Part shown: positions 26,277 through 45,048 of the stretch, piece by piece
How positions within the stretch are numbered: the stretch's first letter is position 1
Layout: each line of letters starts with the position of its first letter
From: Chloroflexus sp. Y-396-1
Lineage (GTDB): Bacteria > Chloroflexota > Chloroflexia > Chloroflexales > Chloroflexaceae
Direction of reading: 5' to 3'
DNA length: 64,000 bases
NCBI RefSeq assembly: GCF_000516515.1
Contig: NZ_KI911784.1
Span: forward strand, 4,130,633-4,194,632
Made by a program: the position numbers and the translations under genes
The notes under the pieces: generated by a model
Told to the model about the DNA's origin: nothing
Seen by the model: only the letters and a program-made list of their open reading frames with translations
Database searches by the model: none

Positions 26277-27071
26277 GTGAAGATCGCCGGTAACTACACT
26301 TTTGCCGCCAGACGTGAAGAAGTGTGGGCTGCATTAAATGATCCAGAGGTGTTAGCCCGCACGATTCCCGGCTGTCAACGTCTTGAGCAAGTTGGCGAAA
26401 ACGAATATGAGAGCACATTGAAGATCGGCTTACAAGCGGTTCGTGGGGTATATAGCGGGCGGGTCAAGATTGACAATCTGCGTCCACCTGAGTACTACGA
26501 AATACACGTTGACGGTAAAGGTAACAACGGTTTTCTTAAGGGTTCGGGGAGTATTCAGCTTCGCGAAGAGAATGGGCATACCATTCTTGATTATGGTGGT
26601 GAAGCCCATGTTGGTGGCACGATTGCCAGTGTCGGTCAACGTTTGCTCGACGGTGCAGCCAAGACGCTTATCTCACAAAGTCTCAAAGCCTTAGCTGCTC
26701 AGATTGAAGCCCGGCGCAGTGGCGGAGTAACATCTGATACACCCATAGTTTCGGCTGAACCTTCACCGGTTGCTGAACCAGCTACGACAACGCCTGAACC
26801 TGTTTCGCCACCAACTCCATCTGCTGCCGAACCGACAGCGACATCGCCCGAACCGACGCCACGTTCGTCGCCACATGTTGCCGAAACGCTTTCATCGGCG
26901 ACTACCGAATCAGCTTCGTTCCGTCGCACAATTCACGTTCCGGCAGGAGAAGGTTTGAGCGAGATTGATGTGGCTCTGGGTGTCGTCGAAGACTTCTTGA
27001 AAGAGCGTCCATGGGTGCCGTGGGTCATTATTGCTTTCTTACTTGGCTATTTACTCGGTCAGCGACGCTAA
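26277..27071 (+). CDS. CoxG-like SRPBCC protein with C-terminal membrane anchor
   Basis: 264 residues. Residues 1-145 are a CoxG/SRPBCC domain (YTFAARREEVWAALNDPEVLARTIPGCQRLEQ; KGSGSIQLREENGHTILDYGGEAHVGG), followed by a long Pro/Thr/Ser/Glu-rich linker and one transmembrane helix at the C-terminus (PWVPWVIIAFLLGYLLGQRR). CoxG in Afipia (Oligotropha) recruits CO dehydrogenase to the membrane; the same job fits here. GTG start at 26277, with AAGGAG about 7 bp upstream. First gene of the operon with the three hydroxylase subunits. Confidence 0.82.
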   Translation: MKIAGNYTFAARREEVWAALNDPEVLARTIPGCQRLEQVGENEYESTLKIGLQAVRGVYSGRVKIDNLRPPEYYEIHVDGKGNNGFLKGSGSIQLREENGHTILDYGGEAHVGGTIASVGQRLLDGAAKTLISQSLKALAAQIEARRSGGVTSDTPIVSAEPSPVAEPATTTPEPVSPPTPSAAEPTATSPEPTPRSSPHVAETLSSATTESASFRRTIHVPAGEGLSEIDVALGVVEDFLKERPWVPWVIIAFLLGYLLGQRR

Positions 27072-27206
27072 TGGCACGTCGCTGGTGATGCGTATATTCA
27101 GTTCATCAACTGGGCGATCTTGCTTCCACTCTTACCCTACCCGGTTCGCCCGCTCTGATCGCAGGTCGTTGGTAGTTCGCTTTACAGACAACGAGGAGGT
27201 TGGAGA

Positions 27207-27689
27207 GTGACAACGATTACGGTCACGGTCAACGGTGTTCGCCATACCAGCGAGGTAGAACCTCGTTTGCTGCTGGTACACTATCTGCGCGAACATCTGA
27301 ATCTGACGGGAACTCACATCGGGTGTGATACCAGCCAGTGTGGTGCATGTGTCGTGCATGTCAACGGGGTCAGCGTGAAATCGTGTACGATGCTGGCGGT
27401 ACAGTGTGACGGTGCCGAAATTACTACGATTGAAGGCCTGGCTCAAGATGGCAAGCTCCATCCGCTACAAGAAGGTTTCTGGGAGAAGCATGGTCTTCAA
27501 TGCGGCTTTTGCACGCCTGGGATGATCATGGCTGCTGCCGATCTGCTCAAACGCAACCCCAATCCTACCGAAGAAGAAATCCGCCACGGTCTCGAAGGGA
27601 ACCTCTGTCGCTGTACCGGCTACGAGAATATCGTCCGAGCGGTTCGCTACGCTGCCGAAAAGATGGCAGCAATGCAAGCTGCTGATTAA
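27207..27689 (+). CDS. Molybdenum hydroxylase small [2Fe-2S] subunit (CoxS-like)
   Basis: Electron-transfer subunit of the xanthine dehydrogenase/CO dehydrogenase family. 160 residues: a plant-type [2Fe-2S] ferredoxin domain ([16 protein letters not shown]...SC) and an all-helical [2Fe-2S] domain (CGFCTPGM ... CRCTGYENI), so all eight ligand cysteines are present. GTG start at 27207 follows GGAGG. Lies 135 bp after coxG-like and 44 bp before the large subunit. Confidence 0.92.
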
Positions 27690-27733
27690 TTCGTCTGATA
27701 ACAGTTCACAAAGAACCTAGTGAGGAGTCAAGG

Positions 27734-30100
27734 ATGACCGCTACCGAAATGAAGGAGCGACTAATTGGGCGGGCGCTGAAGCGTCGGGAAGATCCGAAGC
27801 TAATTACCGGACACGGCAACTATCTCGACGACATCAAGTTGCCGGGTATGTTGCACATCGCGCTGGTGCGTAGCCCATACGCGCATGCGAAGATTGTCTC
27901 TATCGATGCCAGTAAAGCTCTGGCTATGCCGGGTGTTGTGGCTGTCTTTACCGGCAAGGATATGCTCGACATTAATCCAATGCCGGCGGCCTGGCAGGCA
28001 GCAGGGGTCAAGAATTACCCTGTTCCCCCACGGGCCCTAGCGGTTGACAAAGTAGCGCTGGTGGGTGACCCGGTAGCTATGGTGGTAGCCGAGGATCGGT
28101 ACATCGCTCGTGATGCAGCCGATGCGGTTGAGGTTGAGTACGAACCTTTGCCAGCAGTTGTCGATGCTCGCAAGGCGGTCGAACCCGGCGCACCTCAGAT
28201 CCACGAGGCAGCACCTAACAATATTGTGTTTGAATGGGAGTGTGGTAACAAGGCAGCCGCTGATGCGGCAATTGCGAGCGCTGAGGTTGTGGTCAAGGAA
28301 GAGATCATCAATCAGCGGCTAATACCTACCCCGATGGAGACGCGCGGTTCGATTGCGCGTTACGACGCTACAACCGGCGAATGGACCGTCTGGATGACCT
28401 CACAAGCGCCGCACGTGCATCGCCTCCTGCTTACGGCGTTTGTCTTTGGGGTACCTGAAACCAAGCTGCGCTGCATCGCCCCTAATGTAGGTGGTGGTTT
28501 CGGGCAGAAAATCTTCTGCTACAACGATATGGCCTTCACGATGTGGGCTGCACGCAAGCTGGGTCGTCCGGTGAAGTTTGTAGAAGATCGCTCCGAAAAT
28601 TACAAGTATTCGACCCACGGACGCGACCACATTACCGAGGCTGAACTGGCCGGTACCCGTGACGGTAAGATCACCGGTTTACGGGTGAAGACGTGGGCGA
28701 ATATTGGTGCCTACTTCTCAACCGTTGCCGCTGGTATTCCGACAACGCTGTATGGCCGGATCATCACCGGTGTGTACAAGATACCGGCTGCATATGTGCA
28801 CGTCACGGGTGCCTATACCAACACGGCGATGGTCGATGCCTACCGTGGCGCCGGTCGTCCAGAGGCGAGCTATCTAATCGAACGGATGGTTGATCGGTTT
28901 GCCGCCGAAATTGGCATGGATCCGGCTGAGGTTCGGCGCAAGAACTTTATCCAGCCAGAGGATTTCCCCTACGATAATGGGCTTGGTCTGTTACCCTACG
29001 ACAGTGGGAACTACGAACTGGCCCTGAATAAGGCGCTCGAAATTGCCGGTTATGCCGAGTTTCGCAAGCAACAGGCAGAATTGCGCAAGCAGGGTCGCTA
29101 TCTCGGTATCGGGATCTCTTCGTATGTTGAGATCTGCGGTATCGCACCAAGTGCCTGGATGGGTGGTCAGGGCTGGGGAGCTGGCCTCTGGGAGAGTGCC
29201 AATGTGCGGGTCCACCTGACCGGCAAGGTGGTCGTTACTACCGGCTCACTCCCGCATGGGCAGGGTCTCGAAACAACCTTTGCTCAGATCGTTGCCGATG
29301 AGTTGGGTGTGCCGTATGAGGATGTCGAAATTCAATGGGGTGATACGCAAGGCACACCGTTCGGCTACGGCACGTATGGTTCACGCTCGCTGGCTGTCGG
29401 TGGCGTGGCGATTAAGCGTAGTGTCGATAAGATCAAGGAGAAGGCGCGTAAGCTGGCTGCCCACCTGCTCGAAGCGAACGAAGCTGACATTGTCTTCGAG
29501 AACGGTCGCGCTTACGTCAAAGGTTCACCTGACAAGGCTAAGACCATCGGTGAGCTGGCAGCGGCGGCAGCAGTCGCCTACAATTTGCCGCCCGGTATGG
29601 AACCATTCCTCGACGAGACCAGCTACTACGATCCACCGAACTGTACCTTCCCCTTCGGTACCCACGTGAGCATTGTTGAGGTTGATCCTGAAACCGGTCA
29701 CGTGAAGTTGCTGCGCTATATCGCCGTAGACGACTGCGGCAATCAGATCAATCCAATGATTGTTGAAGGTCAGATTCATGGCGGTATTGCGCAGGGTCTA
29801 GCACAAGCCCTCTACGAGAGTGCCGTCTACAACGAGGATGGTCAATTGCTCACCGGTACGCTGATGGACTACGCAGTCCCGACGGCAGCGATGGTTCCCC
29901 ACATCGAAACCGACCATACGGTTACTCCATCGCCGGTTAATCCGTTGGGAGTCAAGGGTGCTGGTGAAGCAGGGACTATTGCTTCAGCGCAGTGCGTGAT
30001 GAACGCCATTATCGATGCGCTGGCACCATTTGGGGTGAAACATCTCCAGATGCCGGCAACGCCGGAGCGGATCTGGAAAGCGATCCACGGCAGTAAGTGA
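27734..30100 (+). CDS. Molybdenum hydroxylase large subunit (form II CoxL-like)
   Basis: 788-residue catalytic subunit holding the Mo-pterin cofactor. It has GGGFGQK, the form-defining loop AYRGAGRPE and the base-catalyst region KGAGEAGTIAS near the C-terminus. True (form I) aerobic CO dehydrogenases have AYXCSFR with the Cu-binding cysteine; AYRGAGR marks form II, whose members mostly hydroxylate other substrates such as aldehydes or N-heterocycles, and whose CO activity is doubtful. The genome-database label carbon monoxide dehydrogenase should therefore not be taken at face value. Start ATG 27734 with GGAG upstream. Confidence 0.9.
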   Translation: MTATEMKERLIGRALKRREDPKLITGHGNYLDDIKLPGMLHIALVRSPYAHAKIVSIDASKALAMPGVVAVFTGKDMLDINPMPAAWQAAGVKNYPVPPRALAVDKVALVGDPVAMVVAEDRYIARDAADAVEVEYEPLPAVVDARKAVEPGAPQIHEAAPNNIVFEWECGNKAAADAAIASAEVVVKEEIINQRLIPTPMETRGSIARYDATTGEWTVWMTSQAPHVHRLLLTAFVFGVPETKLRCIAPNVGGGFGQKIFCYNDMAFTMWAARKLGRPVKFVEDRSENYKYSTHGRDHITEAELAGTRDGKITGLRVKTWANIGAYFSTVAAGIPTTLYGRIITGVYKIPAAYVHVTGAYTNTAMVDAYRGAGRPEASYLIERMVDRFAAEIGMDPAEVRRKNFIQPEDFPYDNGLGLLPYDSGNYELALNKALEIAGYAEFRKQQAELRKQGRYLGIGISSYVEICGIAPSAWMGGQGWGAGLWESANVRVHLTGKVVVTTGSLPHGQGLETTFAQIVADELGVPYEDVEIQWGDTQGTPFGYGTYGSRSLAVGGVAIKRSVDKIKEKARKLAAHLLEANEADIVFENGRAYVKGSPDKAKTIGELAAAAAVAYNLPPGMEPFLDETSYYDPPNCTFPFGTHVSIVEVDPETGHVKLLRYIAVDDCGNQINPMIVEGQIHGGIAQGLAQALYESAVYNEDGQLLTGTLMDYAVPTAAMVPHIETDHTVTPSPVNPLGVKGAGEAGTIASAQCVMNAIIDALAPFGVKHLQMPATPERIWKAIHGSK

Positions 30101-30170
30101 GGGGTAAAAGTTCATGGGCACAGGTAGCTATCGACCTGTGCCCCTCTGTCACGAATAAAAGGGAGTAGCT

Positions 30171-31031
30171 ATGATTCCAGCCCCATTTGATTATTACGCG
30201 CCGAACAGTCTGGCCGAGGCGCTGACACTGCTACAGCAGCATGGTGACGACGCTAAGATTCTGGCCGGTGGTCACTCACTCCTCCCGGCAATGAAATTGC
30301 GTCTGGCCTCGCCAGCAGTCTTGATCGATATTAATAAGGTTTCTGAACTGCGCGGAATCAAGGTGAATGGTACGGTCGAGATCGGCGCCTTGACGACCTG
30401 GAGTGCTATCGAGCAAGATGCCGCACTAGCCAAAGCCTGCCCGATGCTGCCTGAAGCGGTCAGCTTGATTGGCGATATTCAAGTGCGTAATCGCGGCACC
30501 ATTGGTGGGTCGCTTGCTCATGCCGATCCAGCCGCCGATATGCCGGCAGTAGTCCTTGCCCTCGATGCTCATATTCACGTTGAAGGCCCAAATGGACCGC
30601 GCGCGATTGCTGCTACTGATTTCTTCACCGATATGTTGAGCACAGCCCTCGAGCCGGGGGAAATTATTACCTCGATCACGTTCAACAGCCTTGGTCCGGG
30701 TGAAGGCGCCGCATACGCCAAGTTCCCTCATCCGGCCAGTCGGTATGCCATTGTTGGTGCGGCAGCCTACGTGAAAATGGAGAACGGTCAGGTCACGGCT
30801 TGTCGGGTAGCGATCACCGGTGCCGGCCCCAAGGCCGAACGCCAATCGGCGGTTGAGCAGGCATTGATCGGGACTGATGGTAGCGCTGATGCAATCGCTG
30901 CGGCTGCGGCTCATGCGGGTGAAGGAATGGACATGCTTGGCGATATTCACGCCAGTGCAGAGTATCGACGGGCGATGTGTAAGGTGTACGCGAAACGCGC
31001 GTTGCTCAAGGCGGTCGAACGGGCACGGTAA
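30171..31031 (+). CDS. Molybdenum hydroxylase FAD subunit (CoxM-like)
   Basis: 286-residue medium subunit of the hydroxylase, carrying FAD between the iron-sulfur subunit and the acceptor. FAD-loop motifs AGGHSLLPAMKLR (about 32-44) and TIGGSLAHADPAADMP (about 108-123) are present. Last gene of the operon, followed 18 bp later by a clear terminator hairpin. The order G-S-L-M differs from the usual M-S-L. Confidence 0.9.
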   Translation: MIPAPFDYYAPNSLAEALTLLQQHGDDAKILAGGHSLLPAMKLRLASPAVLIDINKVSELRGIKVNGTVEIGALTTWSAIEQDAALAKACPMLPEAVSLIGDIQVRNRGTIGGSLAHADPAADMPAVVLALDAHIHVEGPNGPRAIAATDFFTDMLSTALEPGEIITSITFNSLGPGEGAAYAKFPHPASRYAIVGAAAYVKMENGQVTACRVAITGAGPKAERQSAVEQALIGTDGSADAIAAAAAHAGEGMDMLGDIHASAEYRRAMCKVYAKRALLKAVERAR

Positions 31032-31048
31032 AGTTAGATCGAAGATGA

Positions 31049-31083
31049 GCGGGTAGGCGTTGCGCTTACCCGCTTCGTTTTCT
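31049..31083 (+). terminator. Intrinsic terminator after the molybdenum hydroxylase operon
   Basis: GCGGGTAGGCG (31049-31059), loop TTG, CGCTTACCCGC (31063-31073): an 11-bp stem with one G-T pair, then TTCGTTTTCT. Confidence 0.75.
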
Positions 31084-31474
31084 ATTAAGCGCGATTGACG
31101 GTTTTTTAGCCAGTTACAGCGATTTTCGAGCATTACAACGTCTTACTCGTATGGGTACACATTGCAACCAACAGCTAGATAATTATATTATCCAGAAGCA
31201 TTTTGACGGAACTTCGTCCGCTCAACGCAAATTGTGTCGGCGTAGACGACTAACAGGCGAAAGTGTAACGGTATAGGTCTTACACTCCAAGCAGATGAGT
31301 TGGCTAATCAATATTAGACTGTCTACCGGGCACTGCCCAAATAAGAGGCTTGTCTATCACTTCTCAATGATTATCCCGGCTCTAAGATAAAGATCACGAA
31401 ACTATCTCCAATTCACCCGAGTCGTTAAGTTTTTTCAAGTCTCTAGAGATTCGCTACATGATGAGAGGTGACTG
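31084..31474. other. Upstream region of the nitrilase/RCCR-like operon, with palindromes
   Basis: No gene seen. AT-rich compared with its surroundings. Contains the palindrome GATAAT-TAT-ATTATC (31178-31192) and the inverted repeat AGTGTAA-N11-TTACACT (31262-31286), both candidate operators. No convincing -35/-10 pair is visible, so the operon may depend on an activator. Confidence 0.45.
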
Positions 31475-33136
31475 TTGGCTATGGAATTTCGGGTTCGAGT
31501 GGCGGCAGTCCAATTCGGTGTAGGTACAGATCTGACCGCTAATGCGCAGACGTGTCTGCGCATGATTGACCAGGCAGGGAAGGTTCGACCGAACATCATG
31601 GTTCTGCCAGAATTTATCAATCACCTTGCGTGGTATGAAAGTCCTGAACACTGCTACGCTGTGTCGGTTGCGCCGAATGACCCCTTCTTGCAGGCTATCG
31701 CAGCTAAAGCTAGGTTGTATCGCTGCTATATAAAGGTTAATGTTACCATGCGTCGGGCGTATGGCGTGGTCACAGGCACGAATATTCTGTTCGACCCAAG
31801 CGGGCGGATCTGTGCCATGAACGACAAGCAAGTCTTAATGGGAAATGAAAACAACTTCCTGACCCCTGCTACTGACATTGCTCCAGTGATTGAAACGGAA
31901 TATGGACGGCTGGGAATGTATGCCTGTATGGATGGTGTCATTCCCGAAGTAACTCGATCGCTCGCCATTCGGGGATCACACTTGCTGCTCAATAGCCTGA
32001 ACTCATTTGCGTTTGATGAGGCTTCGCTGCACATTCCCGTGCGCGCAGCGGAGAATAAAGTGTTTGTGGCTGCTGCCAATAAGGTCGGTTCACTTGTTCC
32101 TGAAGAACTGCGAGAAACAGTCGCAGCGCGATTGAAAATTGCTCCCGAATTTCTTGAAGGGGCAGGAGAAAGTCAAATTGTTGCCCCAGATGGCAAGATT
32201 CTCGCGAAAGCGCCAAGGAGGGGTGAAGCGGTGGTTTTTGCAGATATTGATCTGCGTGAGGCGGAAAATAAGCTGCGCCCTGACGGTACGGATATTTTCT
32301 TGACCCGACGCCCTGAATTGTATGTCACTTTGGGAGAACCCCCTCAGGAGAGTTACCCCGAGAGCGGGGCTTCCGATGTACTGGCGGGGGTTCTTCAAGT
32401 GTCAGGTAGAGGACAGAAGGTGCTCGCGTTTGCGGTAGAAAAAGTTGCAGAAGCTGTAGCAGCAGGAGCAAAACTTGTTGTGCTGCCGGAGTTATTTCAT
32501 ATCACCACATTCGATCATGTAGAAGAGGTCTCCACTGAGATGATACGTGTGCTTCAGGTTGTAGCAGGGAATTGTTACATTGCTACTTCAATTGTGGAAG
32601 ACGAGACCCACACGGGCATATTATTTAATCAACACGGAGTGGTACTGAAACAGCCCCAGCTACACCCTTGTGGTAGACACCCATGGTCCAGGTTAGGAAA
32701 CGCATTAAACGTATTTGATTGTGAATGGGGTCGCATAGCGCTGATAGTAGGGAATGACTCGATTTATCCAGAAACGTTCCGTCTGGCGGCATTGCAAGGC
32801 GTTGAAGTAGTTGCTGTACCGACACAGGTTTTAGAAGAGTGGGAACTGACATTAGGATTTAGGGAGCGTGCCGCCGAAAACAGAATGAATGTCTTAGTGG
32901 CTAGTTCAACTACAAGTGCCATCTACGCTATTACCAAAGATTTCACCCTGTGGACCGAATGGAGCGAGCGTCCCTTCGATGGCAACATAAACGCTCCGGT
33001 TGTCACGATGATACGCAGTGATGGTCTGAAATTAGCTGAGATTCATCCGGCAGCGGCAGCGAACAAGATGATATCATATCGCACTCATCTGTTAAATAGT
33101 AGACCCTGGAGACTGATGCAGCCGATAATTTCCTGA
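31475..33136 (+). CDS. Tandem nitrilase/amidase-superfamily protein (second domain inactive)
   Basis: 553 residues made of two carbon-nitrogen hydrolase domains. Domain 1 keeps the catalytic triad: Glu46 (VLPEF), Lys118 (NDKQV) and Cys151 (MYACMDGVIPE). Domain 2 keeps Glu339 (VLPEL) and Lys392, but glycine (Gly426, LIVGNDSIYPE) stands where the nucleophilic cysteine should be, so it is probably non-catalytic. The family hydrolyses nitriles, amides or carbamoyl groups. Start is TTG 31475 (4-5 bp after GAGAGGTG) or ATG 31481. First gene of a four-gene operon with an RCCR-like protein, a flavin monooxygenase and an aldehyde dehydrogenase. Substrate unknown. Confidence 0.8.
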   Translation: MAMEFRVRVAAVQFGVGTDLTANAQTCLRMIDQAGKVRPNIMVLPEFINHLAWYESPEHCYAVSVAPNDPFLQAIAAKARLYRCYIKVNVTMRRAYGVVTGTNILFDPSGRICAMNDKQVLMGNENNFLTPATDIAPVIETEYGRLGMYACMDGVIPEVTRSLAIRGSHLLLNSLNSFAFDEASLHIPVRAAENKVFVAAANKVGSLVPEELRETVAARLKIAPEFLEGAGESQIVAPDGKILAKAPRRGEAVVFADIDLREAENKLRPDGTDIFLTRRPELYVTLGEPPQESYPESGASDVLAGVLQVSGRGQKVLAFAVEKVAEAVAAGAKLVVLPELFHITTFDHVEEVSTEMIRVLQVVAGNCYIATSIVEDETHTGILFNQHGVVLKQPQLHPCGRHPWSRLGNALNVFDCEWGRIALIVGNDSIYPETFRLAALQGVEVVAVPTQVLEEWELTLGFRERAAENRMNVLVASSTTSAIYAITKDFTLWTEWSERPFDGNINAPVVTMIRSDGLKLAEIHPAAAANKMISYRTHLLNSRPWRLMQPIIS

Positions 33137-33141
33137 AAAAG

Positions 33142-33945
33142 ATGAGGGGGAGACCAATCACGGGAGATACGGTACAACATCTGGCTGACGTGCTGGATTC
33201 AAGGGAGCCTGTTGACAATACCGAAACGTTCCGTTACTTACTGAACGTCCGTGAGCGAGCGTGGGAAATTATTCGTACTAGTGTACATTTGCGTGAAGAT
33301 TTGACGTGCAAAGATATTCAACAAATCCCGGACCCCCAGGGTAATATTGTTGGCAATATACATACGTATACAGGCGAAAAGGTAGACTGGATTGTCCGTT
33401 CGTGGATAGGAAGACCGGAGACAGGCTTTACAAATATCCACCTGACTTGCTGGGTGAATGAGGAAACAGACGTTCCACATCTGGGTCTGGCGTTGGGCAC
33501 CGCTCCAGATGTGTTTTGCTATGTAGACTTCCTTCCCCGCTACGATCCTCCACTGAGTTTTGACCATCTGCACCAATATCATGAAACGATGAATGAGATC
33601 TGGATTGCCCTACGCCGAAATCCACGCTACAAGACCTTCACACCCGTTCATTTGTACACTCGCTCAACACTCTCACCGATCGCGATTTGTGGCCTGTTAC
33701 CTCTTGACGATTTTAAAGCGATTGTAGAGCCGGTTATGCTGCAATACGTGTGCCAATGGGTGGAGTTTATCAAAAATGCGCAACCATTGGATGCTGAAAA
33801 GCGTGCTGCTATCAAGCAACGCGATATATTGCTACGTCGCACTATTGTAGAAAAAGATCCGGCCAACACGCTGGCAGACCGTTTAGTAGGTGTAATGATG
33901 CGTGAACGATTGGTACGCATTTTACACGCCGAAGAGCGAGAATAA
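33142..33945 (+). CDS. Red chlorophyll catabolite reductase-like protein
   Basis: 267 soluble residues. I do not know a characterised bacterial homologue. Several blocks resemble plant red chlorophyll catabolite reductase (RCCR; related to ferredoxin-dependent bilin reductases): HTYTGEKVDWIVRSW (74-88), VPHLGLALG then FCYVDFLPRYDP (111-136), LYTRSTLSPIA (171-181) and a basic C-terminal helix around QRDILLRRTI. RCCR reduces an open-chain tetrapyrrole with ferredoxin electrons. No cofactor-binding motif is visible, as expected for that fold. It begins 5 bp after the nitrilase stop and is followed 24 bp later by a flavin monooxygenase. Family assignment is from memory and moderate; activity is not established. 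Confidence 0.5.
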   Translation: MRGRPITGDTVQHLADVLDSREPVDNTETFRYLLNVRERAWEIIRTSVHLREDLTCKDIQQIPDPQGNIVGNIHTYTGEKVDWIVRSWIGRPETGFTNIHLTCWVNEETDVPHLGLALGTAPDVFCYVDFLPRYDPPLSFDHLHQYHETMNEIWIALRRNPRYKTFTPVHLYTRSTLSPIAICGLLPLDDFKAIVEPVMLQYVCQWVEFIKNAQPLDAEKRAAIKQRDILLRRTIVEKDPANTLADRLVGVMMRERLVRILHAEERE

Positions 33946-33969
33946 ACGCTAAAAGGTTGGTTGTTCACT

Positions 33970-35160
33970 ATGAACTCGATAAGTCCTCAGTTCCCCGTAT
34001 TGATCGTAGGTGCAGGTCCGGTTGGTCTTTCACTTGCACTGGCATTAGCGCGGAAGGGTGTCCCTGCTGAGGTCTTTGAGAAAGATCCCGAACTTAACGT
34101 GCAAATTCGCGCTAGTACTTTTCATCCCAGAACTTTGGAGTTGTTCCATAAATGGGGTGTTGCAGAGGATGTCATTCAGCAGGGATATAAGGTGAACCGT
34201 CTGCAGTACTGGGAACGCTGGCCTCGGCAGTTAATTGCCGAATTCGATTATGCCCATATTGCTGGCGACACACCTTTCCCATATCGATTACAATGTCCAC
34301 AACACATTGTTACACGTATTTTGAAACCCGCCGTCGAAGCCAGCCCGACAGGTAGGGTTCATATGGGGCACGAGCTGATAGACTTTACCGATCACGGAAC
34401 CCATGTGACCGCACGCTTTGCTACTGCGTATGGGATCGTTGAGCGCCAGGGTGCGTATCTTGTTGGAGCAGATGGCTCTCATAGCACAGTTCGCAAGCGA
34501 CTAAACATTAACTTCAAGGGAAAAACATATGAAGATCGCTTCTTACTAATCGGTAGCGATCTTAAGATTAGCTCTCTATTCCCCAATGCAGCACCGGTGT
34601 GCTACATCTTTGACCCCCAAGAATGGGTCATTATTCTGAATTTGCCCGACATCGTGCGCGTTGTGTTTCGGATGACAAATGACGAAGATGAAGCGATAGC
34701 TTTACGAGAGGAAAATCTGCGGGCGCGTATGGGGAATTTCTTCGGCCAGTTGCCCGCTTTCAATATTAAGACGACGCAACTGTATCGTGTTCACCAGCGC
34801 GTTGCCGATACATTTCGGGTCGGACGCATCATTTTAGTCGGCGATGCTGCACATAACAATAACCCTGCTGGTGGAATGGGTATGAATAGTGGTATTCATG
34901 ATGCTGCCAATTTAGCCGATAAATTGTATCGCATACAGAGCGGAGAACCGGAGTCCCTGCTCAACGTATATGCCGAAGAGCGTCGGCGATATGCGATGGA
35001 GTCGGTGCAGCTTTACACCGACCAGCAGTACACGAGCATGGTAATGAGCGATGAGGCAGAGCGGAAGCGCAGAAACGAAATCCTCTCTGCGACCGCCAAA
35101 GATCCGACGCGAGCGCGGGCATATCTATTGCGAGCAAGTATGTTGGAAGATCGAATATAA
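33970..35160 (+). CDS. FAD-dependent aromatic-ring monooxygenase (group A, PheA/TfdB-like)
   Basis: 396 residues from ATG 33970, with AAAAGGTTGG upstream; an in-frame TTG 9 bp earlier is an alternative. It has the Rossmann GAGPVG (14-19), the DG motif GADGSHSTVRKRL and the GD motif GRIILVGDAAHNNNPAGGMGMNSGIHDA. Group A enzymes use NAD(P)H and O2 to hydroxylate an activated aromatic or heteroaromatic ring. It lacks the C-terminal thioredoxin-like domain of phenol hydroxylases, so it is the short form. Third gene of the operon. Substrate not readable from sequence. Confidence 0.85.
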   Translation: MNSISPQFPVLIVGAGPVGLSLALALARKGVPAEVFEKDPELNVQIRASTFHPRTLELFHKWGVAEDVIQQGYKVNRLQYWERWPRQLIAEFDYAHIAGDTPFPYRLQCPQHIVTRILKPAVEASPTGRVHMGHELIDFTDHGTHVTARFATAYGIVERQGAYLVGADGSHSTVRKRLNINFKGKTYEDRFLLIGSDLKISSLFPNAAPVCYIFDPQEWVIILNLPDIVRVVFRMTNDEDEAIALREENLRARMGNFFGQLPAFNIKTTQLYRVHQRVADTFRVGRIILVGDAAHNNNPAGGMGMNSGIHDAANLADKLYRIQSGEPESLLNVYAEERRRYAMESVQLYTDQQYTSMVMSDEAERKRRNEILSATAKDPTRARAYLLRASMLEDRI

Positions 35161-35216
35161 ACAAAATGTAGTTCACCTTATGAAATGATCCTGCCTCTGC
35201 CCTAGGAGAGTCGTCT

Positions 35217-36662
35217 ATGAAAACGTATGGACATTTCATCCATGGAAATGAGATTCCCGCTGTCAGAGGCGAAACGTTTCCTAGCATCGCTCCCGCAAGC
35301 GGCGAAATTCTCGGTTATGCTGCACGTGGCACAGAGGCTGATGTAGAAATTGCGGTTTCCTCGGCGCGAGCAGGATTCTCTTCCTGGTCATCGCTGCCAA
35401 TTGCTCAGCGCGAGCACATATTGTTCAAATGCGCCGAAGCAGTAGAGGCCAATTATAACCGTCTACTCAATTTACTTATTGATGAGAGTGGTTCCACGAT
35501 TGTCAAAGCAAGATATGAAGTTCTGTACACCGCATCAGTTTTACGTGCAGCAGCCGGTGAAGTTCGACGGCTTTACGGAGATACATTGCCGGCTGAAAAG
35601 CTGCATCGTCTTTCAATGGTGGTGCGAGAACCGGTGGGCGTAGTTGTCGTGATTTCACCCTTCAATGCGCCGCTGGCGCTTTTAGCGAAAATGACCGCGT
35701 TTCCGCTTGGGGCCGGTAATGCCGTAATTGCCAAGCCATCGGAAGAAACCCCACTGATTGCGATTGAACTTGCTAACGTTTTGTACGAAGCAGGATTACC
35801 GGCTGGCGTCTTCAACGTTGTGACTGGTTTGGGGTCGGAATGTGGCGAACCGCTTCTCAAGCATCCTGGAGTAAACGGTGTGGCATTTACAGGATCAACG
35901 GCTACTGGCATTAGGGTTGGTCAGATCGCAATTCAAACGATGAAACGACTGCAACTAGAACTGGGAGGAAAAAACCCTCTCCTGGTGCTGGGTGATATGG
36001 ATATGGCGGAAGCAGCGGAAATTGCTGCAATAGGTGCATTTACCCACGGTGGACAAATCTGCATGTCAAGTGCCCGTATCATTGTCGAGGCGCCGTATGG
36101 TCTTGCCTTCGCCAATGCTCTGGCAAAGAAGGCCTCTAGCCTGTATCTGGGTGATTTGCGTGATGAGCGCACAGCTTATGGTCCACTTATCAATCAGCGC
36201 GCTATAGAGAAAGTGATTCGTCATGTGCGGGCGGCCAGGGAAGGTGGAGGACAAATCTTGGCGGGTGGAGGCGTGCATCACGGCCTGGTCTTTCAGCCAA
36301 CTGTAGTTTACAACCCGCCAAGGTTGGGCGAATGCTGGGAAGAAGAGACATTTGGGCCGGTAGCCCTGGTCACCGAAGCCGATTCTCTTGAGGAAATGAT
36401 TACCATTGCCAACGAAAGCCAGTACGGACTGAGTGCTGGCATCCTCACCAATGATTTGAAACGTGGCTTGAGGGCAGCGCGTCAAATTCGCTGTGGCGCG
36501 ATTCATCTCGGAACGCATTCGTTTCAATCAGACCCGATGGCGCCAATCGGTGGGTACGGCATGTCCGGAATTGGTCGTAGCGGTGGCAAATACTCGATTG
36601 AACACTTTACCGAACTTAAGTGGATTTCAGTAGAGCTAGGAGAAATACCGAGACCCTTCTAA
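35217..36662 (+). CDS. Aldehyde dehydrogenase (benzaldehyde/vanillin dehydrogenase-like)
   Basis: 481 residues. NAD-site GSTATG (226-231), catalytic Glu248 in ELGGKNP and nucleophile Cys282 in GGQICMSS are all present. The pattern around the cysteine is closest, in my judgement, to aromatic-aldehyde dehydrogenases, which fits the neighbouring ring monooxygenase. ATG 35217 follows AGGAG. Last gene of the operon; a gap of 97 bp separates it from the convergent phosphatase-superfamily gene. Confidence 0.87.
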   Translation: MKTYGHFIHGNEIPAVRGETFPSIAPASGEILGYAARGTEADVEIAVSSARAGFSSWSSLPIAQREHILFKCAEAVEANYNRLLNLLIDESGSTIVKARYEVLYTASVLRAAAGEVRRLYGDTLPAEKLHRLSMVVREPVGVVVVISPFNAPLALLAKMTAFPLGAGNAVIAKPSEETPLIAIELANVLYEAGLPAGVFNVVTGLGSECGEPLLKHPGVNGVAFTGSTATGIRVGQIAIQTMKRLQLELGGKNPLLVLGDMDMAEAAEIAAIGAFTHGGQICMSSARIIVEAPYGLAFANALAKKASSLYLGDLRDERTAYGPLINQRAIEKVIRHVRAAREGGGQILAGGGVHHGLVFQPTVVYNPPRLGECWEEETFGPVALVTEADSLEEMITIANESQYGLSAGILTNDLKRGLRAARQIRCGAIHLGTHSFQSDPMAPIGGYGMSGIGRSGGKYSIEHFTELKWISVELGEIPRPF

Positions 36663-36759
36663 TTGTTAGTCAATTGTATCCACTTGCCAAAGAGAGAATG
36701 CAACGTCAGAAACCAGAAGAATATGACCGCCTTGTGACAGTATTAACGGCATAAACTCA

Positions 36760-38169
36760 TCACAATTCCAGCGCCGTACCGCGTAGTCCTTCAGGGATAG
36801 CTATGTTGAACCGTCTCAACAGGGTAGGCAGTATATCGTAAATCTGCACATTGTCGAGACGCCGCCCGCCGCCGGGTCGCTTTGGATCGCGCCAGATGAA
36901 CAGCCCATGTTGTGCATGGTTGGCATCATCGGGACCGGTGTCGTTCTCCTGAGTGAATATCCCGTTACCACCAACTGTTCCCACTGCACGCCAGGCGAGA
37001 TTACCGAAGTAGACGATCAGGTCGGGGGCAACACCGCGTACAGCACGATAGAGGTGCTGTGGTATGAAGACCCTGTTTCCAAGCAGATGACCGTCTGGAC
37101 CAGGCATCGCTTCCAGCCGTGCTGCGAGGTCAGCACGTACACGCTCGTACTCCATCGGCGGAATAATGCCCTGCGGTTCACGCCCGCGCACATTGAGAAA
37201 GATGCGTCCGTAGTAGCCACCTGCACCCCAAGCGCGGGTGCGCGACCAGTCAACTTCCACCTGATCGAGGTTGGCTGGTTCGTCTGGCGTTGTTCGCAAC
37301 GTCAGCTCACCCTGCGCGCTCAACCATTGATTGATCCGCACTCCACCCAGCAACGGACGCGCACCGTGGTCGGATACCACCAGCACTGCTGTCTGATAGT
37401 CGCAGCGTGATAGCAAATTTGCAATCTGGGCATCTACGTAGCGATAGTATGCGTGAATCGTCTCTGCAAAGGGCGAATCGGGAACAAACAGTGGATGCTG
37501 TGGGTCCATATGTTTCCAGAACGCATGATGAATCCGATCAACCCCCATATCAACCAGCATGAGAAAATCAGGGCGCTCTTCCTCAATCAGTGCTGTGGCA
37601 ACCGCGAAACGCTGATCGCATATAGCGTAGATGTCGCGCACAATCCGTTCTTTGTCATCAGAGCGAAAATTAGGAACATCAAGCAGGTATGAGCGTCCCG
37701 GTGTCACTTTCGCGATCCAGGTATCAACACGTTCTGCGAATGTCGGTGGAAAGGTATAGGTCACATCCGTCGACGGTGCAAGAAAGCACGAGATTAGCAC
37801 ACCATTCACAGCAGACGGCGGATAGGTGCCGGGAACGCCGATCACTGCCACGCGCCATCCCGTCTCACCGAGGATGTCCCACAAACGTGGAAACCGAATG
37901 GCACGGCTGTCGGCGACAATCATACGGCTATAGGATCGATCAAGGCGGTTGCGAAACCCGTAAACGCCAAGTTCACCCGGATCGCGCCCGCTCATCATAC
38001 AACTCCAGGCCGGGACGGTGATCGCCGGGATGCAACTTTCCAGTTCACCGTAGACCCCCTCCGCCATCAGACGGTTGAGAGTCGGCAGATCGGCGCGCCA
38101 GCGGCCAAATACCAGCGATGGTTCGGCGGAATCGAGGCCAATAATAATGAGACGGGGAGCAACGGTCAT
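36760..38169 (-). CDS. Alkaline-phosphatase-superfamily phosphodiesterase
   Basis: 469 residues of the type I phosphodiesterase/nucleotide pyrophosphatase family. Metal ligands begin at IIGLDSAEP; the nucleophile is the threonine in CIPAITVPAWSCMMSG; later ligands appear in DMGVDRIHHAFW and VVSDHGARP. No signal peptide, so it probably acts in the cytoplasm. It overlaps lgt by 4 bp (ATGA), the last gene of a three-gene operon with lgt and a second superfamily member. Substrate unknown. Confidence 0.8.
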   Translation of the reverse strand: MTVAPRLIIIGLDSAEPSLVFGRWRADLPTLNRLMAEGVYGELESCIPAITVPAWSCMMSGRDPGELGVYGFRNRLDRSYSRMIVADSRAIRFPRLWDILGETGWRVAVIGVPGTYPPSAVNGVLISCFLAPSTDVTYTFPPTFAERVDTWIAKVTPGRSYLLDVPNFRSDDKERIVRDIYAICDQRFAVATALIEEERPDFLMLVDMGVDRIHHAFWKHMDPQHPLFVPDSPFAETIHAYYRYVDAQIANLLSRCDYQTAVLVVSDHGARPLLGGVRINQWLSAQGELTLRTTPDEPANLDQVEVDWSRTRAWGAGGYYGRIFLNVRGREPQGIIPPMEYERVRADLAARLEAMPGPDGHLLGNRVFIPQHLYRAVRGVAPDLIVYFGNLAWRAVGTVGGNGIFTQENDTGPDDANHAQHGLFIWRDPKRPGGGRRLDNVQIYDILPTLLRRFNIAIPEGLRGTALEL

Positions 38170-39011
38170 GACTCGGCTCTTGTGCTTACAGTTGAATATC
38201 GGTGTCGGCGGTAGAGCAGCACGGAGGCCACGATGACTGCAACGAGCGAAAGAATATGTACAACATTGAATGGCGTTCCAGGAAAAAACCAGGAGTCAGT
38301 ACGGAGAAACTCGATAAAGAAGCGCCCTAGCGGATACCATAAAAGATACATAATCGATATATCGCCGTCGCGTAGCCGATCGCCATAGCGACGCCAGATG
38401 GAAAAGATCACTGCAAAGCCGATGAGGTTCCAGAGCGATTCGTACAGAAAAAGTGGATGGAAACGGGTCGTTTCTGGAAATGCCACTAGATCTCGGTACG
38501 GACCGATACGATGTTCGGCGTCGATACGCAACCCCCACGGCAAGGTCGTCGGCGGCCCATAAAGCTCCTGGTTGATAAAGTTTGCCCATCGTCCAACTGC
38601 CTGGCCCAGGGGGAGACCGAGTGCAATCGCGTCGGCGTACACGAGAAGTGGCGCCTTCCGTAGATGGGCAAACGCCCATAATCCGAGCGCACCAAAGATG
38701 AACCCACCGAAAATGTGCAACCCCCCTTCCCATACTGCCAGAATGCTCGCCGGATTACTTAGAAAGCGTCCTAACCCCTCTGGCCCACGCGGTGACTGAA
38801 TGAACACATAGTAGAGGCGTGCGCCGATCAATCCAGGGATCAGTACCCAAAGCAACAGATCCCACACTGAATCGCGATCTAGCCCGCAGCGCTCAATATG
38901 GCGGGAACCAACCCACGCTGCTAGCATAACGCCGGCCATGATTAGCACGCCATACCAGCGCAGTGTCAGTGGACCAAGCTGCACGATAACTGGGTCAACG
39001 GGAGGATACAT
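38166..39011 (-). CDS. lgt: Prolipoprotein diacylglyceryl transferase
   Basis: Moves diacylglycerol from phosphatidylglycerol to the lipobox cysteine of prolipoproteins. 281 residues, about seven membrane helices, with LRWYGVLIMAGV, WEGGLHIFGGFIFG (essential His region) and the signature GQAVGRWANFINQELYG. This window encodes at least three lipoprotein clients (at 10101, 55745 and 61620). Sits between two alkaline-phosphatase-superfamily genes with a 5-bp gap and a 4-bp overlap. Confidence 0.94.
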   Translation of the reverse strand: MYPPVDPVIVQLGPLTLRWYGVLIMAGVMLAAWVGSRHIERCGLDRDSVWDLLLWVLIPGLIGARLYYVFIQSPRGPEGLGRFLSNPASILAVWEGGLHIFGGFIFGALGLWAFAHLRKAPLLVYADAIALGLPLGQAVGRWANFINQELYGPPTTLPWGLRIDAEHRIGPYRDLVAFPETTRFHPLFLYESLWNLIGFAVIFSIWRRYGDRLRDGDISIMYLLWYPLGRFFIEFLRTDSWFFPGTPFNVVHILSLVAVIVASVLLYRRHRYSTVSTRAES

Positions 39012-39016
39012 GGTCG

Positions 39017-40555
39017 TTACTCAAGATACCCCAACTCTCTCAGACGTCGCTGGACAATCGGATCATCCACTTCCTCAGCACGTCGGATGAGTGGCGTTCT
39101 AGTAATGGTGCGACGAACAAAAGCACTGAGGATCGCCTGTAGTTCTTCAACTCTTTCCGGCAAGATTGCCGCCAAATCAACTGTTTCGCAGGGATCAGCA
39201 TCAACATCATACAGTTCAACCTGGTCTTCACCGATCTGAATCAATTTGTGTGCACCACTAATCACTGCACGGCGCGGTTGATCGAAGCGGCGCGTATGCA
39301 CGAGATCAGGCCGTCGTCGTAGCATAATTCCCAAAACGTTTTGCGGCGGTTCCGCCTCGCTGAAGATAATACCGCTATCAGGATCAGCAGCAGGCGATTG
39401 CGCCAGTGAACGATCACGCTCGATGCCACTGGCAATCCCAGCGGCACTCAGCAAGGTGTGGAAGACTCGTCGCAACGAGAGCGGGTGATCAACTACTGCA
39501 CCACGTGGAAAGTCACCAACCGGATCACGCACTATCAGTGGAACGTGGATCAGTTCGTTGTAGACCGACATCATGTGCCCGACAAGCCCTTTTTCACCCA
39601 GGTGTTCGCCGTGATCGGCACATATCAGCAGCAAGGTACGGTTCAGCGCGCCACTCTCGCGTAGGCGGCGTAGGAACACGCCAAGATGGGCATCCTGCGT
39701 GGCAACCTCGGCATCGTACACATCACTGAGCACGTGATGATACCGCTCATCTACCCCAGAGAACGGGGCAAACCATCCGAACACATCACCGTTGAACCGA
39801 CGCACATAGCGCGCTGCTTCCCGGTCACGGATCACCTCTGGCGCAAACCGTTCAAGCATCCGTCGGTCCGGATGGTACGGTGTGTGAACACCCATCAGAT
39901 TGATGAAGGCAAAAATAGGCTGATTTGGCTCAACGCCACGTCGTTCGATAAGCAGACGCGCCGCGTCGTTGAGCGATTTGGGAGTATTCCCCTTGAAACT
40001 GAGCGCCGTCTGCCAGAGTGGCACCATCAATGGCGTAAACGCGAACTCCAGCAGCAGTTCAGAGTGGGCAAATGAGTTCTGAATGCGGTTAAGGAGCGCT
40101 GCCAGACGCCCCTTAAACCACTGTCGATAACGCCCGATCAGTCCTGGGTGCGCGCCGGCCTGATTCGGACGCGAGGTCAGCAGGCCGCTGTAATTCAAAA
40201 AACTCTCAAAACCGCGCCGCAACCCGTTGTTAACAACGCCCACCAGCGGGTTATTGCAGAATGCTGCCGTCATGTACCCGCCTTCACGCAGCCGTTCCGC
40301 CAGCGTCGGAATGTTGGCAGGGAGCACCGCTGATGATTGGTTAGTCGCATGCTCCGATGGGTAGAGACCGGTAAACATCGAAGCGTGTGATGGAATCGTC
40401 CACTGCGCAGTGGTATAAACGCGACGGAAGAGAGTCGCGTCAGCCGCAAGTTCATCGAGGTAGGGTGAGGTCGGTCGAGAATAGCCGTAGCACGAAAGTC
40501 TGTCGTAACGTTGGGTATCCAGCACAAGCAGCACAATATCGGGGCGCCGGCTCAC
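39017..40555 (-). CDS. Sulfatase-like hydrolase/transferase with threonine nucleophile
   Basis: 512 residues of the sulfatase/alkaline-phosphatase superfamily: N-terminal IVLLVLDTQRYDRLSCYGY (metal Asp13) and ICADHGEHLGEKG. The modified cysteine of true sulfatases (CxPxR) is replaced by TIPSH with Thr53, as in phosphoglycerol transferases and other phospho-group enzymes, so sulfatase activity is unlikely. GTG start at 40555 is secure: AGGAGG lies 7 bp upstream. First gene of the operon with lgt. No clear signal peptide. Confidence 0.82.
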   Translation of the reverse strand: MSRRPDIVLLVLDTQRYDRLSCYGYSRPTSPYLDELAADATLFRRVYTTAQWTIPSHASMFTGLYPSEHATNQSSAVLPANIPTLAERLREGGYMTAAFCNNPLVGVVNNGLRRGFESFLNYSGLLTSRPNQAGAHPGLIGRYRQWFKGRLAALLNRIQNSFAHSELLLEFAFTPLMVPLWQTALSFKGNTPKSLNDAARLLIERRGVEPNQPIFAFINLMGVHTPYHPDRRMLERFAPEVIRDREAARYVRRFNGDVFGWFAPFSGVDERYHHVLSDVYDAEVATQDAHLGVFLRRLRESGALNRTLLLICADHGEHLGEKGLVGHMMSVYNELIHVPLIVRDPVGDFPRGAVVDHPLSLRRVFHTLLSAAGIASGIERDRSLAQSPAADPDSGIIFSEAEPPQNVLGIMLRRRPDLVHTRRFDQPRRAVISGAHKLIQIGEDQVELYDVDADPCETVDLAAILPERVEELQAILSAFVRRTITRTPLIRRAEEVDDPIVQRRLRELGYLE

Positions 40556-41020
40556 AAATGATCCTCCTCAGGGAAAACCGGTTGGAACACCATGATTATA
40601 CCATGTTTAGTGCCTGCATACCGGAAGAACGTGCAGCATAATACATGGATGTTTTGTGCAGGTCACACATCTACCCGAAACGCAGTGCATACCAGAGCAC
40701 ATTGTATGCGCCAGCCGTAACATAGGCATCAACGAAGTGATTGCCAATCCGCACGAACAGGATACCTATTTTGCGCTTGATGATACGAAGAATCGATTAG
40801 CTTGAACGATCACATTCTATCATGAGCCAGAGTACCAACAATACCATATTTAAACGCTATCCGTTTTGAGAACTGCTTGCCGCTATTGCCGTTGCAGTTG
40901 GGACAGACATTCGGCGTGGATGCACTGACAGTGCGCAATGCACAGAAGAGGATTGAGAGTGGCGTGCTTCTGTATCAAAAAAGCACGGGAGTGTCACTGC
41001 TGAAGATATTCAAGGTATGT
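40556..41020. other. Intergenic region with a possible gene remnant
   Basis: No complete gene. On the minus strand 40671-40796 reads 41 uninterrupted codons ending at TAG and rich in hydrophobic and aromatic residues (for example RIGNHFVDAYVTAGAYNVL), preceded directly by an in-frame stop. It could be the surviving C-terminus of a deleted gene or chance. Confidence 0.3.
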
Positions 41021-42112
41021 TCAAGGAAAGAAATCACTACACACAATATCCGTTTGAAAGATCACATTCTCTAGCGACTCTCCCCCTGTAACTGAAAACT
41101 GCTTACTACTGTAAGGAAAAAAAGCGGCGTTTCCGCCGCTATTACAGGTACCTTCGAGCACACCGGGTCGAATTTCCATAACACCATCAGGTGTTTCCGG
41201 CACAAAATCCGAAGGCGAGGCAAAGGTACTATCCGGTCTGATGTCAACCAGAATGTTGAACCAGTTGTCGCCGACCCCAGCCAGAGGATGATCGGACGGG
41301 TAGATCGGCCCACGGATTGAAAGTGACGCTTTGCTAATGTTGACTCCACTATCTGGCCGATGAACCATATCCCAGAAAAGGCCCGACTCAACAAACGCTC
41401 TGGCAACGCGCTCGACATAAACAGTTCCACTTACCGAGGCAACTCCTGTGCGATAGCTGCCGTATAATTCCTTCCCCAACAAGCCAAGCAAGACGCGGTA
41501 CTGTGGTGGGTTGTCAGGATGATACTCAAACCGTGCTCGCTCGAACCACTGCGTCAACACCGTTGCCCCTTCTGCATTCGTCTCTACCATTGGTTCCGAA
41601 ATAGGATAACCGAAGAGAGCAAGTGATTCGACCCAGGCTCTTCCACCCATTCCTAAATCTAACCCATGGCTGTACCAGAAGCTGCGGAACGGTTCGCAGA
41701 GAGTATGACCCGTTTCAGGAAAGAAATCACATCCAGGAGTTGGTGTGCCTTTAGGAAAGTCTGCCCAGTTGCGTCCTTGTTTGAGCAACACTTCAACGCC
41801 AATTCGGATGGGTACCACGCGATAGGGTTCTGGGTGGGTAGGACAATACTCTAGCCGTTGACGCTCGAACATTTGGGTTGCACAGAGATGACCATCCTCA
41901 GAATTATGTACGAGTTTTGCTGGCGCTAACGGATAACCGAAGATGGGGAGTCCACCGTTGCGATCCCAGAAGCTGTAAAATGGCGGAGCAATCCAGTTTT
42001 GTGTTTCACCAAAAAAAGCTGCCACAGTTTTCTGTTCTGATACGTCAGCCGCTACCGTACCAGTGCTGAATACAAGCAAGAGCACAATGTTTATAAGACA
42101 GATTCGACGCAT
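41021..42112 (-). CDS. Secreted protein with two FGYP/FERxRxEY repeats
   Basis: 363 residues. A signal peptide (about 1-21, ending near TVAA) precedes two repeats of about 90 residues, each running FWxxxG...FGYP...TQxFERxRxEYxPxxPxxYRVxxxxxGxExL. Such repeats are common in secreted Chloroflexota proteins. The last about 120 residues (VARAFVESGLFWDMVHRPDSG...) form a different domain, perhaps a binding module. A terminator-like hairpin with a T-run is embedded in the coding strand about 100 bp before the stop. Function unknown. Confidence 0.7.
   Translation of the reverse strand: MRRICLINIVLLLVFSTGTVAADVSEQKTVAAFFGETQNWIAPPFYSFWDRNGGLPIFGYPLAPAKLVHNSEDGHLCATQMFERQRLEYCPTHPEPYRVVPIRIGVEVLLKQGRNWADFPKGTPTPGCDFFPETGHTLCEPFRSFWYSHGLDLGMGGRAWVESLALFGYPISEPMVETNAEGATVLTQWFERARFEYHPDNPPQYRVLLGLLGKELYGSYRTGVASVSGTVYVERVARAFVESGLFWDMVHRPDSGVNISKASLSIRGPIYPSDHPLAGVGDNWFNILVDIRPDSTFASPSDFVPETPDGVMEIRPGVLEGTCNSGGNAAFFPYSSKQFSVTGGESLENVIFQTDIVCSDFFP
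41117..41140 (-). terminator. Intrinsic-terminator-like hairpin inside a coding region
   Basis: Minus strand: AGCGGCG (41140-41134), tetraloop GAAA, CGCCGCT (41129-41123), with seven consecutive T ending at 41117. A stable GNRA-capped 7-bp stem directly followed by T7 is a textbook intrinsic terminator, yet it encodes NSGGNAAFF within the secreted protein, roughly 95 bp before its stop codon. Confidence 0.6.
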
Positions 42113-42171
42113 GCCTAGCCTTTCTGTCTACATTGATGCCACAAGGGAGGGTGAATATTCAACTTAGTAAG

Positions 42172-42287
42172 TGCCTATCCGGAATACCCTGTCGCAGAAG
42201 AAGATCGGTTGGCGCGCAGCACCGCTGCGCCCGTACATCTATCAGGTTTCGTCCGCCGTACCGTGAGACGATTATTCGGATAGGCTC
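42172..42287 (-). mobile_element. MITE-like element, copy A
   Basis: 116 bp, flanked by TAAG direct repeats (42168-42171 and 42288-42291). Terminal inverted repeats: TGCCTATCCGGAATA on the left and, read inwards from the right, GAGCCTATCCGAATA. Internally it holds the hairpin GCGCAGC-GGT-GCTGCGC. It is closely similar to the inverted copy at 45049-45162. No transposase. With two copies and matching target duplications, a non-autonomous transposable element is the likely explanation. Confidence 0.7.
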
Positions 42288-42986
42288 TAAGAATGTACAA
42301 CACTGGAGAGTTATATTATCGCTATACCACCACCTTTTGAGATGTTCAATGTTTCCGAATTTCTTTAAGGCTTTTCAACGTTTTCTTCTGCCCGGCAGAT
42401 GAGAGGAAAACGGCGCGATTCCCCAATTCGTCCGCTGTGCGTGCAGCGTTTCCTCGTTGGTGCGCCGATGATTCCCGTCTCCGCGTTGGTAGGGGCGAGT
42501 TCCAAACCCATCCGCATCGTGGGTGCTTGCGATGGTTGTAGGTTCCATCGCGGCCAATGCAAGACGCGGGCCAACGGCCTGCGCATCCAGGTGATCGCCT
42601 AGGTCAGGAGTCATCGGTAACGGATGGGTGATGTTCGTCGGGATCGCTCCGTTGGTGAACCGTTCGGTCATTGAATGTACCCCGAAACCGCGAACTCTGA
42701 AAACCCCCGGATTGCTTGTACCTGGGAGCGCGGGCCGGAGGCCCGCGTCCTGCGTTGTGTGCGTGGAACTAGTACGACTCCCCAAACCTTGGCCGGCGGA
42801 GGAAAGGGTGAATCGTCCATCCCGCATCTGCTCGCCTTCTTCACCACTGCCGGGTAGGTAAAGAACTCAGAACAGACCTGCTGAATGTTCTCCTAATCAT
42901 GTCCAACGGTTTGAATAACGCCCGGCACTTTGTTATGTGACAGTAAATCTTACCAAACGTTTCCAAACCCCGTCCGGCTGTAGCCT
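42288..42986. other. Intergenic region with palindromic repeats
   Basis: No gene supported; frames on both strands are short, lack ribosome sites and overlap each other. It includes the palindrome CGCGGGCC-GGA-GGCCCGCG (42729-42747), shared with 6614-6630 and 45298-45314. Confidence 0.45.
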
Positions 42987-44795: not shown

Positions 44796-45048
44796 ACCAC
44801 CTCAAATACCGATTCCTTTGAAACATCTCCGGGATACAGATAGGAATTTTCGATCCAAAGAACAAAGGGGAATGTGATGTCCTGGCGGTCAAGCCGCCAT
44901 AAAGCCGCGGGCGGTCAGACGTAGACCGCACCAACGGGCGGGGAGAAAACAGAGCTGACTCGTTGCGACCTGCGACTCCATGACAACCCCACACGCTATC
45001 CTTACCGTGAGAGTAGTATAACAGATTGTAGAGCATTTGTTGAACTTA
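44796..45048. other. Intergenic region between metG and MITE-like copy B
   Basis: About 250 bp containing the promoter side of metG. No gene and no recognisable T-box or other leader. Confidence 0.4.

Follow-up and report, generated by a model that had tools for sequence, protein, structure and literature searches.

The described systems that come closest to the locus reported here are plant chlorophyll breakdown by STAY-GREEN (SGR), pheophytinase, PAO, and red chlorophyll catabolite reductase (RCCR); the ferredoxin-dependent bilin reductases PcyA, PebA, and PebB and their pre-PcyA relatives (PMC10151467); and nicotinate and nicotine degradation (nic; HspB-Hpo-Nfo-Ami-Iso). About 10^12 kg of chlorophyll is made and broken down per year (PMC7318184), and its oxidation, like that of heme, is known to yield maleimides (alkylmaleimides) and hematinic acid as end products, which have also been reported in lake sediments (PMC7318184). 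In the open-access literature searched, we found no description of a bacterial gene set mineralizing the chlorophyll ring, nor of the operon and clusters presented below. The operon lies in a stretch of 64,000 nucleotides of Chloroflexus sp. Y-396-1 (contig NZ_KI911784.1), hereafter the window, and consists of four genes:

31475-33136, plus strand: C-N hydrolase (NIT), ATG probably at 31481 (PF00795 CN_hydrolase, 1e-45)
33142-33945, plus strand: RCCR-family protein (PF06405 RCC_reductase, 2.9e-14)
33961-35160, plus strand: FAD monooxygenase (FMO), ATG probably at 33970 (PF01494 FAD_binding_3, 1.5e-60)
35217-36662, plus strand: aldehyde dehydrogenase (ALDH; PF00171 Aldedh, 3.2e-146)

The four open reading frames (ORFs) at 31475-36662 are all intact and are separated by gaps of 5, 24, and 56 bp. 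Their positions and Pfam families agree with the initial annotation, which had described four closely spaced genes on one strand. The gene order is kept in other Chloroflexota contigs at 55-79% protein identity and recurs in Anaerolineae and Caldilineales, showing that the arrangement is not due to chance.

The product of 33142-33945 belongs by homology to the RCCR family. This resemblance, proposed in the initial annotation, was borne out by the match to PF06405 (53.3 bits; cut-off, 24.9), by profile comparison, and by the fold. The four blocks on which it had been noticed (VDWIVRSW, VPHLGLALG, YVDFLPRYDP, and TRSTLSPIA) are all present in the protein. A profile built from the alignment of 18 homologs (A1) gave Arabidopsis RCCR (AtRCCR, or ACD2) as the top solved chain (E = 8.9e-16) and GtPEBB as the second. 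The AlphaFold2 model (predicted local distance difference test [pLDDT], 86.6; predicted template modeling score, 0.87) retrieved AtRCCR first in Foldseek (E = 5.5e-13; template modeling score about 0.7) and bilin reductases after it, so that the predicted structure has the RCCR/bilin-reductase fold rather than an unrelated one. Besides family and fold, the protein shares with plant RCCR an RSxxSP motif and a conserved C-terminal Asp: D239 aligns with AtRCCR D291 (numbered with an offset of 43, by which F218 coincides with the residue mutated in the F218V structure 3agb) and is invariant in 18/18 A1 sequences. However, identity to the plant protein is about 20%, Phe218 is changed to Leu, and E154 aligns with A117, an Ala in the window protein and in 14 homologs of the cluster 1 type. 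The sheet Asp of ferredoxin-dependent bilin reductases (equivalent to PcyA D105) is also not found in the window protein, which has Ala117 there. We take E154 and D291 to be the catalytic acids of AtRCCR. Since the position of Glu154 is occupied by Ala117, RCCR activity of the window protein cannot be assumed, and on its sequence we do not class it as a functional RCCR. Its setting also differs from that of plant RCCR, as it is encoded in an operon with ring-oxidizing and amide-cleaving enzymes; likewise, its neighbors, unlike those of bilin reductases, are catabolic, and no linked heme oxygenase or globin was recognized among the scanned genes. A divergent family member (L019, 9806-10636; 31% identity over the best segment) was seen in a gammaproteobacterial metagenome-assembled genome, next to an isocitrate/isopropylmalate dehydrogenase-like gene, an alpha/beta hydrolase, and a two-component system.

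The other three enzymes support the catabolic character attributed to the operon. The C-N hydrolase is a tandem, nitrilase-superfamily amidase whose closest solved structure is PH0642 (1j31; E = 6e-16). As read from the sequence, its N-terminal domain carries the triad Glu44-Lys116-Cys149 (numbered from the ATG at 31481), while the C-terminal domain has no catalytic-triad Cys. The closest solved structures of the monooxygenase are PnpA (6ain; 2.4e-47) and HspB (7da9; 6.7e-39), by which it is classed as an FAD-dependent aromatic or N-heteroaromatic monooxygenase. For the aldehyde dehydrogenase, the closest NCBIfam models are HpaE/BADH/SSADH, each below its cut-off.

In relatives, the operon is part of larger clusters. 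Cluster 1 RCCR (66-76% identity) is carried by 14 Anaerolineae and Caldilineales loci, in two forms. Form A has the order NIT-RCCR-FMO-(ALDH)-(major facilitator superfamily [MFS] transporter) with an Amdase-like gene on the opposite strand, followed by an alpha/beta hydrolase, two membrane proteins, an isochorismatase-type amidase, CoA-transferase III, HpaI aldolase, a PCC-domain protein, and GntR. Form B, found in Roseilinea and its kin, comprises NIT, a Rieske oxygenase, FMO, a PrpB-like lyase, the Amdase-like protein, an alpha/beta hydrolase, a membrane protein, RCCR, isochorismatase, and PsuG- and nucleoside-hydrolase-like genes. ORFs C10, C14, C39, K1, and K18 in these relatives were discarded as apparent antisense shadows of real genes. 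Most carriers of the operon are Anaerolineae metagenome-assembled genomes, and at least one is Candidatus Roseilinea; the Anaerolineae carriers are generally regarded as heterotrophs.

A search of 396 Anaerolineae genomes with the A1 profile gave matches in 17, of three types: cluster 1 proteins (>460 bits), a divergent family, K5 (173-266 bits; PF06405 at 5.9e-19), and weak matches that form a third type, K9. In K9 (for example, L056, 6923-7639) both acidic residues are retained, as in bilin reductases: the C-terminal Asp is kept along with an Asp in PHFTLDSV, at the position of the sheet Asp of those enzymes. The conserved K5/K9 block (cluster 2, the partner cluster) contains GntR, K8, DUF3891, K0a, K15, a chlorophyllase-like hydrolase, a Rieske/VanA_C oxygenase, K9, and K0b, and further includes an SDR or ALDH, an HMGL-like lyase, LeuC, LeuD, a CoA-transferase, a dihydropyrimidinase-type hydrolase, and an acyl-CoA dehydrogenase. 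Families K0, K8, and K15 (L056, L062, and L114-L117) gave no Pfam match. The top structural matches of K0 (alignment A2) were DUF3598, BFA1, nitrobindin, and a CpcS-like protein, so that it resembles calycins and may have a role in substrate binding; its model (mean pLDDT, 59) serves as a hint only. Altogether, the Anaerolineae gene set around RCCR-like proteins totals roughly 30 genes.

The two clusters are tied by their distribution. K9 matched in 16/396 genomes and a true RCCR (cluster 1 or K5) was found in 16/396; they share 15 genomes against 0.65 expected (hypergeometric P = 5e-25, a value that is strong but not to be read literally, as the 396 genomes are related and it overstates their independence). 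Nearly all genomes with the partner cluster but without K5 have a cluster 1 RCCR, suggesting that cluster 1 RCCR and K5 are interchangeable. On the single contig of genome G112, the RCCR operon and the K9 cluster are both present (at 1.10 and 3.95 Mb, 2.85 Mb apart), and in G602 both modules stand in one run on one contig. These results suggest that the window-type operon is functionally tied to K9, the Rieske oxygenase, and enzymes that would suit imides and alkylated C4 diacids. The neighborhoods of the homologs are thus compatible with the proposed link to the breakdown of a tetrapyrrole or an N-heterocycle, and the partner cluster strengthens it.

Given that the set includes two RCCR/bilin-reductase proteins, the breakdown of open-chain tetrapyrroles is the most economical reading. 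With about even confidence, we propose that the operon is a module of an aerobic or oxidative pathway of Chloroflexota for open-chain tetrapyrroles or pyrrolic/maleimide fragments, in which substrate, reactions, and order are all putative. Somewhat more tentatively, Chloroflexota may have a complete and undescribed open-chain tetrapyrrole pathway, of which the window operon would be a horizontally acquired module; this pathway would center on three subfamilies with the RCCR/bilin-reductase fold, together with a Rieske oxygenase and a branch for alkylmaleimide/maleate. Candidate substrates are chlorophyll- or heme-derived bilin-like catabolites, or mono- and dipyrrolic fragments. The RCCR-like protein, probably with ferredoxin, would reduce or remodel a pyrrolinone-type ring via Asp239; the monooxygenase would hydroxylate or open the ring; the C-N hydrolase (Glu-Lys-Cys) would cut an amide, with release of ammonia; and the aldehyde dehydrogenase would oxidize an aldehyde fragment. 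In Anaerolineae, upstream steps could be provided by the Rieske oxygenase, the chlorophyllase-like hydrolase, the second bilin-reductase-like protein, and the calycin-like binding proteins of the partner cluster. An alkylmaleimide would require hydrolysis of the cyclic imide and of the half-amide, LeuCD/DmdB-type hydration, and PrpB/HMGL-type lyase cleavage; the cyclic-imide hydrolase, half-amidase, LeuCD/DmdB hydratase, HMGL or PrpB lyase, and CoA-transferases could take such alkylmaleimide/maleate-type products into central metabolism. A parallel with DmdAB and dimethylmalate lyase is known from the anaerobic fermentation of nicotinate.

As in plant chlorophyll breakdown, RCCR-like proteins occur in the Anaerolineae clusters together with a Rieske oxygenase and a putative chlorophyllase-like hydrolase; unlike the plant pathway, these clusters add enzymes for full carbon breakdown. 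Several observations nevertheless weigh against a tetrapyrrole substrate. The Rieske protein of the partner cluster has Rieske and VanA_C domains and no match to the PaO domain, and the chlorophyllase-like hydrolase matches PF07224 below the cut-off (E = 2.6e-5). The K0 model is weak, and the sheet acid corresponding to AtRCCR E154 is, judging from the alignment, replaced by Ala in the family of the window protein. Among the 396 genomes, no overlap was found between the 11 with SGR and the 17 with RCCR, although chance alone would often give zero; no linkage of STAY-GREEN to the RCCR clusters was found. STAY-GREEN homologs above the cut-off (PF12638; L066-L075) were seen in 10 of these genomes, none with RCCR clusters. 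Finally, the window genome has no K9, no Amdase-like protein, and no close homolog of the partner-cluster Rieske protein.

The main alternative is the catabolism of simple N-heteroaromatics (pyridine/nicotinate/nicotine-like compounds, pyrimidines, or hydantoins), with the RCCR-fold protein recruited as a ring reductase and no tetrapyrrole involved. The clusters share with nicotinate and nicotine degradation an FAD monooxygenase, an alpha/beta hydrolase, an isochorismatase-type amidase, a protein of the Amdase/maleate-isomerase superfamily, and an aldehyde dehydrogenase. Of the two solved proteins closest to the monooxygenase, PnpA and HspB, HspB comes from nicotine degradation; the isochorismatase has matches to N-carbamoylsarcosine amidase and to the putative isochorismatases 3ot4 and 3uao; the imidase of the partner cluster is closest to dihydropyrimidinase and allantoinase; and Roseilinea-type clusters adjoin the PsuG- and nucleoside-hydrolase-like genes. 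Maleate isomerase is a distant relative of the Amdase-like protein, but in the latter both catalytic Cys are replaced (by Met and Thr), and the assignment as a maleate isomerase was rejected; no dihydroxypyridine ring-cleaving dioxygenase was recognized among the scanned cluster members. Moreover, this explanation leaves at least two RCCR/bilin-reductase-fold proteins per cluster, along with the calycin-like proteins, unaccounted for, and we consider it rather unlikely.

That the genes make or modify a bilin-type pigment (a chromophore or secondary metabolite), rather than serve catabolism, appears quite improbable. Bilin reductases are biosynthetic in phototrophs, heterotroph pre-PcyA reductases produce phytobilins (PMC10151467), and calycin-like proteins are encoded nearby, but the amidases, imide hydrolase, LeuCD, HMGL and PrpB lyases, acyl-CoA dehydrogenase, CoA-transferases, and GntR regulators indicate degradation.

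The distribution of the operon bears on whether it recycles the host's own bacteriochlorophyll, as the initial annotation had suggested in viewing the host as a bacteriochlorophyll producer. The FMO was not found in any of the seven other congeneric genomes, nor the RCCR in any other sampled genus or family member. The operon is thus not required for pigment turnover in these congeners, the carriers are mostly Anaerolineae, and the MFS transporter of form A suggests a substrate from outside. Despite the presence of Candidatus Roseilinea among the carriers, recycling of the host's own pigment was not borne out: it is unlikely as the general role of the operon, and as an account of this locus we rate it very improbable.

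Absence from congeners, together with a location in a variable segment of lower GC content, indicates that the operon was probably acquired. This segment and a nearby hairpin are as follows:

31035-42987, no strand: variable segment holding the operon, from comparison of conserved flanks with congeners
31047-31075, plus strand: terminator-like hairpin (13 pairs, 8 GC) between the operon and the upstream molybdenum-hydroxylase operon

The flanks (28996-31034 and 42988-44806) are about 12 kb apart here and 1.8-5.7 kb apart in five congeners, and the GC content of the locus is 0.497, versus 0.536 for the remainder of the window. In the RCCR tree, the window protein adjoins the Anaerolineae form A set, inside the Caldilineales and Roseilinea-type sequences, with modest support. 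As K9, the Amdase-like protein, and a close Rieske homolog were not found, the window genome holds a partial module of the proposed tetrapyrrole pathway. The genome would have gained this module alone, and the module would there either take over a substrate that is already processed in part or supply other enzymes. Independently of what it does in Anaerolineae, the operon could here be a transferred fragment that serves another function or detoxification in general; this would fit the missing partners, the GC content, and the variable segment but is most improbable given the four intact ORFs and conserved catalytic residues.

Upstream, 26277-31031 encodes CoxG and a three-subunit molybdenum hydroxylase whose large subunit carries AYRGAGR, the form II motif, which differs from that of form I CO dehydrogenase. 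This operon was excluded from the system on two grounds: all congeners keep its medium subunit at 90-94% identity yet have no RCCR operon, and the hairpin stands between the two operons. The hairpin is no more than a consensus match, of which 8 were found versus 5.7 expected. Downstream, a block at 36760-40576 holds phosphodiesterase/sulfatase-like, Lgt-like, and sulfatase-like genes and is 81% identical in congener G118, elsewhere in the chromosome. Another locus (L024, 1965-9617; G000:C1, about 511-519 kb) encodes GntR, CoA-transferase, HMG-CoA-lyase-like, hydantoinase A/B-like, and isochorismatase proteins. Its isochorismatase is 65% identical to that of the RCCR cluster, but it is present in 8/8 genomes of the genus, and the locus is not supported as the specific missing half of the system.

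The locus supplies concrete, testable candidate genes for the mineralization of the chlorophyll ring by bacteria. It also bears on the origin of plant RCCR. Anaerolineae are already known to have a bacterial STAY-GREEN with Mg-dechelatase activity (PMC11006732, PMC8531759); with genomes sampled at the class level, they carry RCCR-family proteins as well as STAY-GREEN, in different genomes.

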